Assembly (NCBI GenBank): GCA_001460835.1
Contig: CYKH01000491.1
Location: 1 to 20,957, forward strand
DNA length: 20,957 bases
Origin: Bodo saltans
Taxonomy: Eukaryota; Euglenozoa; Kinetoplastea; Eubodonida; Bodonidae
Reading direction: 5' to 3'
The notes beneath the pieces were generated by a model. The model was not told the DNA's origin. It was given only the letters and a program-made list of their open reading frames with translations, and ran no database searches. The position numbers and the translations under genes were made by a program. This document shows, in pieces, positions 9,498 to 11,828 of this stretch. The first letter of the stretch is position 1, and each line of letters starts with the position of its first letter.

Positions 9498-10001
9498 TCC
9501 ACATCCACCGCGCCAAAGGGTGTTTTGCCGCATCCCCCCGATGCGAAGCGTGCGTTTTGAGAAGAGCCATAGAGATGAGGTGTTGTCACTTTGATCTGCA
9601 GTTCATTGTGTTGTGCACTACACATTCGTTTGGTTAATTCACACAACAAAGAAATGGTTTACCAAATGAATGTGATATGGTTGCACCATCTACTTCTTAG
9701 TGGCACGATGATGCGCATGCCATCTCTGAGGGGAAGTGGAGCTTTCGCAGATGCCATGCTTGAACGCACTGTGCTGCGTCCATTAACCTCGTATCTACAA
9801 ACGACGCAGCGCATGATGCTTTCCATATGGAGAACCCCTTTTGCTTTTATTGTAGACCGACGCTTGCATTTCACTTGTGATCAGGCTTGGTACTCTGATT
9901 TTGAGAATCGTCTCCACTTTGTACCCTCGCAACTGCAGCACAAAAAGAAATCAGCAATCAACACAAATAAGGTCCTACAAAAGAGCAGCTCTCCGTTAGC
10001 A
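9498..10001 (+). other. 504-base gap before the PNKP start: 3' UTR, splicing tracts and an in-frame open extension
   Basis: The first ~100 bases should be the 3' UTR of the esterase gene. From 9591 the PNKP frame is open all the way to the ATG at 10002, with in-frame ATGs at 9654, 9669, 9705, 9708, 9714 and others. The bases 9654-10001 would encode a 116-residue extension with no domain I recognise and several Arg/Met/Leu-rich stretches. A strong pyrimidine tract at 9835-9855 lies inside it, so the extension is more likely leader sequence than protein, though an alternative upstream start is possible (see findings). I see no RNA gene here. Confidence 0.5.
9835..9855 (+). promoter_or_regulatory. 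Predicted spliced-leader acceptor for the PNKP gene
   Basis: The tract CCCCTTTTGCTTTTATTGTAG ends in AG at 9854-9855 (read CCCCTTTTGC then TTTTATTGTAG). Downstream of it the first ATG in any frame is the one at 10002, which opens directly into the first WWE domain. The resulting leader would be 146 bases. Confidence 0.55.
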
Positions 10002-11828
10002 ATGGCAGCGAAATGGCAATATCGAAACGATGACTTCAAATTTGTGGATTTCACAAAGAAGGACACTGCAGAACTGGAGAAGGCGTGGGCACGCAACGAC
10101 GCTTCTATCAAGCTGACCATTCGTGGCCATCCCTACACGCTGGATCTGAAGTTATTCGTCCAGCGTAATGAGGAGACGAAGACGGAGAGGATTATTCGTC
10201 GCGTGGACCCGGACTCGAAGACAGGTGGTGCGCATGTATGGGGACGTGGGCCTCAATGGGAATGGGAGTCTCACCACGGCGTGTTTGTCCCTTATGATGC
10301 CGCCACGAATGATATTATCGAAACAGCGTTTTCCAAGGATGCCATCAGGGCTCAGATCAAGCTCGATGTATCTGCACATGAAAAGAAATCTTTTGTCGTT
10401 CACTTTGGGCACATGCACCAAGAAAACGAAGAGGGGACGGGTGTCCGCAAGGTTCGCCGCAGCATCAAAGACATTGCACCAGCAGCAGCGGCAATCAAGG
10501 CAGATGAGGAGGAGACCACCTCACGCCAAGCAGTGTTGGCAGCAGCAGCGGCGTCGAAGAAACGACCTCGTGACGAGCCTGAAGCGGCATCAAGTGCAGT
10601 GGATGCTGCCCCAGCGCTGCCCTCAACCGGTGGTGGTGGTGTGCCTAGCTCCGCCCCTCTTCCCCAGCTAGGAGACTGGCTCAAGGTGAATGGCGGGTCA
10701 GTCCTGGTGCTTCCCGTGGCCTTCCCAGCGTCAACGAGCCCAATCAAGATCGCTGGTTTCGACATGGATGACACTCTTGTGTTCCCCGCAAGCGGTGCCG
10801 TGTTCGCAAAGTCACGCACAGATTGGAAATGGCTGTGCCCAGAAGTAGTCCCGAAGCTGTTGGAATATCACAACAACGGGTATCGTATTGTGATCTTCTC
10901 CAATCAAAGCGGCATCGGTGGAAAGGGATGGGACGAGGGCAAGGCGAATGAAATCCGTGGCAAAATTGTGGACATCAGTGCAGCATGTAAAATCCCAATT
11001 GCCGCGGTGATCTCCACCAAAGAAGATGAGTTTCGCAAACCATGTACGGAGATGTGGGATATTGTGTACCGTGAGCACTGTTGCCTAAAGGGTGCAAATA
11101 TTGACAAGGCGTCAAGTTTCTATTGTGGTGATGCAGCCGGTCGGGCAATCATGACGCTAGCCGGCAGGAAGAAAGACTTTTCGTGCAGCGATCGTAAGTT
11201 CGCCTACAACCTTGGTGTCAAGTTTTTCACGCCCGAGGAAATCTTCAAGCGGGCACCTGCAGCACCGGTCGACAAATGGCACGGGCCTAGCCCTGATCTT
11301 CTAAACTCCATCGCAACAGCGTACCCCCAGTCGTCCTACCACTCAGCGTCGCAGGAGATGGTGATCATGATGGGGTATCCTGGCTCTGGGAAGTCCACGT
11401 TCTATCAGCGATTCTTTGGCTCTCAAGGATATGCCCATGTGAATCGCGACACGCTCAAAACACCTGAGAAATGCATGGCGGCTGCGGACGCATTCCTTGG
11501 TCAAAAGAAATCTGTGGTGGTTGACAACACCAACCCCACCGCCGAAGATCGTAAGCGCTACGTTGACATTGCCCGGAAGCACGGCGTCCCTGTTCGATGC
11601 TTCGTGATGGAAGCAAACGAAGCTCTCGCTAACCACATGAACGTCACACGTGCACGCCTCGGCATCACAGACCGCGTCTCATCGATTGCCTACCGTGTGT
11701 ATGGATCAAAGGTGACGGCACCAGATGCTGCAAAAGAAGGTTTTGTAAGTGTTGTGTCGATTCCACCTGTGGCAGACTTCACTGGCCTTCCTCCTACAAC
11801 GAAAGCCCTTTTCTATCAACTGACGTGA
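10002..11828 (+). CDS. PNKP: Polynucleotide kinase 3'-phosphatase with two N-terminal WWE domains
   Basis: 608 residues from the ATG at 10002. PNKP repairs DNA strand-break ends by removing 3'-phosphates and phosphorylating 5'-hydroxyls before ligation. Domains in order: WWE1 (about 4-69, W5, Y45, Q54, R63), WWE2 (about 85-156, W86 and W88, Q140, R149, VRR at 151-153), an Ala/Glu-rich linker with a nuclear-signal-like KKRPR (186-190), a PNK3P HAD phosphatase (about 247-420), and a P-loop kinase (about 452-605). Phosphatase residues: D254 and D256 in FDMDDTL, S300-N301 in IFSNQSG, K346-P347, and YCGDAAGR at 374-381. Kinase residues: Walker A GYPGSGKST (458-466, K464), NRD at 481-483, and DNTNPT at 508-513. 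Both catalytic halves look intact. WWE domains bind poly(ADP-ribose) through iso-ADP-ribose, so the enzyme may be recruited by PAR at breaks. Human PNKP has an FHA domain at this position instead. Confidence 0.93.
   Translation: MAAKWQYRNDDFKFVDFTKKDTAELEKAWARNDASIKLTIRGHPYTLDLKLFVQRNEETKTERIIRRVDPDSKTGGAHVWGRGPQWEWESHHGVFVPYDAATNDIIETAFSKDAIRAQIKLDVSAHEKKSFVVHFGHMHQENEEGTGVRKVRRSIKDIAPAAAAIKADEEETTSRQAVLAAAAASKKRPRDEPEAASSAVDAAPALPSTGGGGVPSSAPLPQLGDWLKVNGGSVLVLPVAFPASTSPIKIAGFDMDDTLVFPASGAVFAKSRTDWKWLCPEVVPKLLEYHNNGYRIVIFSNQSGIGGKGWDEGKANEIRGKIVDISAACKIPIAAVISTKEDEFRKPCTEMWDIVYREHCCLKGANIDKASSFYCGDAAGRAIMTLAGRKKDFSCSDRKFAYNLGVKFFTPEEIFKRAPAAPVDKWHGPSPDLLNSIATAYPQSSYHSASQEMVIMMGYPGSGKSTFYQRFFGSQGYAHVNRDTLKTPEKCMAAADAFLGQKKSVVVDNTNPTAEDRKRYVDIARKHGVPVRCFVMEANEALANHMNVTRARLGITDRVSSIAYRVYGSKVTAPDAAKEGFVSVVSIPPVADFTGLPPTTKALFYQLT

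Follow-up and report, generated by a model that had tools for sequence, protein, structure and literature searches.

Trypanosomes are reported to make poly(ADP-ribose) (PAR), a polymer formed at broken DNA, after DNA damage, and the zinc fingers of the plant 3'-phosphatase ZDP are of the PARP type. Vertebrate PNKP has been reported to use an FHA domain to dock on XRCC1 and XRCC4 (PMC5087659), and the FHA domain of the human enzyme is also reported to bind iso-ADP-ribose (PMC4936651, citing Li et al. 2013). The plant enzyme, ZDP/ZmDP2, is a zinc-finger-named 3'-phosphatase related to PNKP and is described as being without kinase activity (PMC6728418). Ku70 and DNA ligase III of Dictyostelium, with a PBZ domain and a macrodomain, respectively, are reported examples of repair proteins with an ADP-ribose-binding domain that the vertebrate counterpart lacks (PMC5087659). 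We analyzed a stretch of 20,957 nucleotides from the kinetoplastid Bodo saltans (contig CYKH01000491.1 of assembly GCA_001460835.1, positions 1 to 20,957 of the forward strand; here called the window), which encodes a PNKP of 608 residues with two WWE domains, a domain type that binds PAR in other proteins, ahead of its phosphatase and kinase. In contrast to the plant enzyme, this protein retains a kinase domain, and it differs from the Dictyostelium cases both in the protein concerned and in the reader domain.

By Pfam profiles, the domain order is WWE-WWE-linker-PNK3P phosphatase-P-loop kinase. Since WWE is matched twice and PNK3P and AAA_33 are matched as well, and since the upstream residues contain no known domain, the protein is a WWE-WWE-phosphatase-kinase; this architecture is real and well supported. 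We put the probability that PAR recruits this PNKP through its WWE pair at about 0.68. Such recruitment is plausible as a mechanism, in which catalysis, PAR binding, recruitment, release, and nuclear location are predicted from sequence. A DNA break would activate a WGR-containing PARP, which would build PAR. The N-terminal tandem WWE, at the position of FHA in animal PNKP, would serve as the targeting device. ADP-ribose units in the chain would be bound by WWE1, whose pocket is complete, and perhaps by WWE2, in whose pocket Tyr is changed to Phe. Through the flexible linker, the catalytic half would gain access to the DNA end, and the enzyme, as a DNA 3'-phosphatase and 5'-kinase, would clean break ends ahead of filling and ligation. 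PARG would then strip the chain and release PNKP.

The first-pass annotation of the window set this protein against human PNKP and its FHA domain, a contrast that was overstated given the reported binding of iso-ADP-ribose by the human FHA (PMC4936651). In light of that binding, the replacement looks like one PAR-capable targeting domain for another; PNKP reading PAR has precedent, and a dedicated reader in place of FHA looks like the new part. No WWE-PNKP fusion was found in the open-access papers searched, most of them seen as listings, and one may have been annotated earlier in eukaryote domain databases. If recruitment through PAR is correct, the coupling of PAR to end healing would appear to have been kept despite a changed docking domain. 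The WWE domain would then help to identify repair proteins not yet known from this lineage, a use argued for PBZ and macrodomains in Dictyostelium (PMC5087659). A single enzyme with two pockets, addressable with a few point mutants, offers a clean test system.

Domain architecture

The phosphatase and kinase halves are complete, as had been claimed. The PNK3P profile matched residues 249 to 415 (E value, 3.2e-51), with the motifs FDMDDTL (253 to 259), FSNQSG (299 to 304), RKPCTEMWD (345 to 353), and CGDAAGR (375 to 381). The 3'-phosphatase model TIGR01664 scored 137.1 bits, above its cutoff of 107.65. The AAA_33 profile matched residues 453 to 553 (E value, 1.2e-17), with a Walker A motif (GYPGSGKST, 458 to 466), HVNRDTLK (479 to 486), and VVVDNTNP (505 to 512). 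Both halves fell within a single alignment to the solved PNKP 3zvl, which we take to be the mouse enzyme (residues 241 to 603; E value, 7.2e-68). By sequence, the protein is a bifunctional PNKP with phosphatase and kinase in the same chain, and the kept motifs predict catalysis on DNA ends. The two halves, their order, and their motifs are those of animal PNKP; the differences are the tandem WWE in place of FHA and DMDDT in place of DxDGT.

The WWE profile matched two stretches of the whole protein (E value, 8.3e-28). Each segment also matched when submitted alone: residues 1 to 70 gave WWE at 4 to 67 (E value, 6.5e-16; 58.9 bits) and residues 79 to 157 gave WWE at 85 to 153 (E value, 5.3e-13; 49.6 bits), against a cutoff of 21.1 bits. 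The two WWE segments proposed from the letters, 4 to 69 and 85 to 156, were thus recovered with agreeing borders. Of the WWE signature, W5/E26 and W86/E107 are kept, and the second Trp is replaced by Phe in both copies (F14 and F95). A structure model of WWE1 showed the WWE fold, a six-strand half-barrel with one helix (E4-7 E13-15 H18-29 E34-39 E42-47 E52-55 E61-66, where model residue i is protein residue i+1), at a predicted local distance difference test (pLDDT) score of 87. Among solved WWE chains, the best template modeling (TM) score was 0.84, for TRIP12-ADP; the score for RNF146 was 0.83. The proposed fold was borne out in this way for WWE1.

No FHA match was obtained in the 608-residue protein at E values up to 5, and none was obtained when the upstream frame was added. 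The bifunctional model TIGR01663, whose first part is presumably the FHA domain, aligned only over its positions 164 to 501 of 520 (285.9 bits, below the cutoff of 502.8). The absence of FHA, also part of the earlier claim, agrees with both results.

WWE1 and WWE2 are identical at 12 of 65 positions in a 24-row alignment (25% in a pairwise alignment). In a tree of 24 WWE segments (19 from the same genome and 5 from human structures) they stood apart and were joined in 0% of 200 bootstrap trees, with bootstrap support unsettled and 14 of 21 inner branches open, so that the pair may or may not have arisen by internal duplication. No relative of the protein was confirmed among viral contigs (28 and 2 pattern matches) or prokaryote genome contigs (2).

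Ligand pocket of the WWE domains

In HUWE1, Trp1619 is reported to stack on the adenine of ADP (Tyr107 in RNF146), and the conserved Gln1667 makes a dual hydrogen bond (PMC11269756). On the phosphate side, the contacts described are Tyr1658, Asn1669, and Arg1676, with Tyr1658 hydrogen bonded to the proximal phosphate (PMC11269756). In the 24-row alignment, WWE1 has a residue of the same kind at all five positions (Y7 for Trp; Y45, Q54, N56, and R63) and WWE2 at four of the five (W88, Q140, N142, and R149), with F131 in place of the Tyr. The ligand pocket is largely intact, with one change in WWE2. The first-pass annotation had named Y45, Q54, R63, and F131, and these residues are indeed present; its aromatic column, Y45 and F131, aligns with the phosphate-binding Tyr1658 and not with the adenine-stacking aromatic. 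The adenine-stacking aromatics, by alignment to HUWE1, are Y7 and W88, and N56/N142 (Asn1669 of HUWE1) is a pocket position added to that set.

The closest arrangement of known structure is that of Deltex. DTX1 likewise has two adjacent WWE domains, and it was the best solved tandem match to residues 1 to 164 (46.2 bits, or 62.5 bits over both copies with a four-row profile). It differs in being fused to an E3 ligase rather than to a DNA-end-healing enzyme and in having Trp as the adenine aromatic where WWE1 has Tyr. This likeness suggests another role for the tandem WWE, mainly that of a protein-protein module through which PNKP would attach to a repair scaffold or to the tandem-WWE PARP of this genome, with ADP-ribose binding weak or lost. 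The Deltex tandem is reportedly, by the title of Zweifel et al. 2005, a Notch-receptor-binding structure, and the loss of the phosphate tyrosine in WWE2 points the same way. However, residues of the same kind occupy all five ADP-contact positions of WWE1 and four of the five of WWE2, and PAR is reported to be bound by DTX1 itself (PMC11269756). We consider a mainly protein-docking role unlikely.

The RNF146-type specificity that had been proposed for WWE1 is half supported. WWE1 shares with the RNF146 WWE the predicted fold, the adenine Tyr, and the common Tyr, Gln, and Arg columns, and Tyr at the adenine position is a feature credited with the iso-ADP-ribose preference of RNF146 (PMC11269756). 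However, the sequence match to RNF146 is weak (E value of 0.046 for WWE1) and the context here is a PNKP. Where a basic distal-phosphate loop is described for RNF146, WWE1 has N9-D10, beside the adenine Tyr. These residues align with the Asp pair of HUWE1 and TRIP12, which is said to disfavor iso-ADP-ribose (PMC11269756).

The WWE pair might read mono-ADP-ribose, terminal ADP-ribose, or ATP/ADP instead of the interior of PAR, with the mark supplied by the many ADP-ribosyltransferase-like genes of this genome. HUWE1 and TRIP12 are reported to favor ADP-ribose over iso-ADP-ribose (PMC11269756), TRIP12 is the top structural match of the WWE1 model, and PARP catalytic domains were matched 27 times in the genome, compared with a single match for WGR. 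Set against this are the adenine Tyr of WWE1, the RNF146 feature tied to iso-ADP-ribose specificity (PMC11269756), and the strongest PARP match (233.8 bits), which belongs to the WGR protein. Such a specificity seems improbable to us.

ADP-ribose-related genes in the genome

Genome counts are from a six-frame profile search of the incomplete 29.3-Mb assembly (934 contigs) and are lower bounds. The only PNK3P match is the PNKP gene of the window. WGR was matched once, in a WWE-WWE-WGR-PARP_reg-PARP protein (contig 109, L028:2371-4632). This PARP is of the DNA-damage type and might read its own product. Both of its WWE copies, which are N-terminal, keep all five pocket positions. There are two PARG matches. 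XRCC1_N gave one weak and partial match (25.8 bits; positions 8 to 67 of 148). It lies in a protein that we take to resemble CEP104 and was therefore rejected as XRCC1. The tandem-WWE PARP, the PARG matches, and the lack of a convincing XRCC1 N-domain make recruitment through PAR more likely. The interpretation given in the first-pass annotation is partly supported: the domains, the missing FHA, the pocket, and the genome context agree with it, and PAR binding itself would be the expectation from them.

Several points weigh against PAR recruitment. WWE2 has Phe (F131) in place of the Tyr that contacts the proximal phosphate, and one copy of a tandem WWE can be dead, as reported for PARP13 (PMC11269756). 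A hypergeometric test of pocket retention gave a weak P value of 0.04 per copy, with 4 of 5 exact matches each. Retention is also common in the family, since Q, N, and R occur together in 13 of the 19 WWE segments of the genome (17 profile matches and 2 added by eye, namely, a second C608 copy and the N-terminal one of C126), whereas 4 of the 19 keep no more than two of the five positions. The Asn column is Arg in the known binders DTX1 WWE1 and RNF146, so the Asn is not an absolute requirement. The whole tandem, folded without an alignment, gave a useless model (pLDDT of 31). The WWE domain is not the sole possible reader, since FHA (14 matches, none on the PNKP contig) and PBZ (2 matches) proteins occur in the genome. 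The reported Notch-binding role of Deltex belongs here as well. Finally, the negative result for the XRCC1 N-domain comes from the six-frame search with the XRCC1_N family alone, BRCT not being searched, and a divergent XRCC1 could escape it.

WWE gave 17 profile matches in 14 frames, 12 of which were scanned whole with Pfam (all except the second C126 frame and C587). The other fusion partners were a 3'-5' exonuclease, a protein kinase, WD40 repeats, an AAA ATPase, and PARP catalytic domains. The exonuclease and the protein kinase carry a C-terminal WWE (L031:1464-2882 on contig 223 and L029:1450-2916 on contig 905), and these two domains are sisters in the WWE tree (97/98), which suggests domain shuffling. 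Tandem-WWE PARP, tandem-WWE PNKP, and exonuclease-WWE could share one reader in an XRCC1-free circuit based on ADP-ribose only, in which PARP would recognize the polymer that it makes and the repair enzymes would bind that polymer themselves, with no phospho-scaffold in between. We regard this wider circuit as tentative, with the odds against it.

Of the 27 PARP catalytic matches, 25 were above the cutoff and many were partial over the profile; the 27 places amount to a large set of ADP-ribosyltransferase-like genes. Macro was matched three times and Ku twice. A 306-residue frame on contig 409 (L050:907-1824) has a PARP-type zinc finger and a PBZ domain, no catalytic domain, and, by eye, another PBZ-like stretch at its C terminus; by this content it is possibly a break sensor and PAR reader. 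Contig 901 encodes an FHA-RING-cysteine-rich-PBZ protein (L037:1207-2838), presumably the layout of CHFR. On contig 878 (L020:2663-4510), a WWE domain is followed by a weak match to the MavL macrodomain effector family (E value, 0.017; below the cutoff), and the protein is perhaps a WWE-guided ADP-ribose hydrolase.

Gene structure and neighboring features

The coordinates of the features are given in Table 1. The PNKP frame runs through all domains without an N or a stop. It stays open upstream as far as position 9591, and these 137 extra residues matched no Pfam family at an E value of ≤0.01.

Table 1. Features of the PNKP gene, in window coordinates
Feature	Position	Strand	Basis or remark
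Candidate trans-splice acceptor	9834..9855	+	Pyrimidine-rich tract ending in AG; 16/20 pyrimidines before AG
PNKP coding sequence, whole	10002..11828	+	608 residues plus stop, one intact frame
WWE1	10011..10202	+	Residues 4-67; pocket Y7, Y45, Q54, N56, R63
WWE2	10254..10460	+	Residues 85-153; pocket W88, F131, Q140, N142, R149
Linker, Ala/Pro-rich	10461..10745	+	Sequence itself
HAD-type 3'-phosphatase domain (PNK3P)	10746..11246	+	Profile match; aligned to solved PNKP 3zvl
P-loop 5'-kinase domain	11358..11660	+	Profile match; alignment to solved PNKP

The AG ending at 9855 is the most pyrimidine-rich found, has its next downstream ATG at 10002, and may serve as the trans-splice acceptor. The AGs at 9884 and 9938 likewise have 10002 as the first ATG. 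A fourth candidate AG (9700; 14/20 pyrimidines) would lead to the in-frame ATG at 9708 and add 98 residues without a known domain. In the linker, the basic run KKRPRDE (residues 186 to 192, nucleotides 10557 to 10577) resembles a nuclear localization signal and may act as one.

A spliced-leader-end pattern gave 15 exact matches in the genome and none for the control, in line with a kinetoplastid source, as is the one-strand arrangement of the long frames in the window. All of the genome-search matches listed, these 15 included, are on the plus strand. Seven of the 15 ends lie at contig base 1 or 2, and two of five inspected come after runs of N; transcripts may have been used to orient or join the contigs. 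The assembly contains N gaps, and with so many spliced-leader ends at contig starts, joins elsewhere may be imperfect, raising the question of whether the WWE-PNKP fusion is an artefact of the assembly or gene model. Against this stand the uninterrupted frame through all domains and the other tandem-WWE enzymes encoded by the same genome, and we consider an artefact extremely improbable.

The long frames in the window are arranged on one strand, and a NIF/CTD-type phosphatase gene lies at positions 410 to 1750, on the same strand as PNKP.
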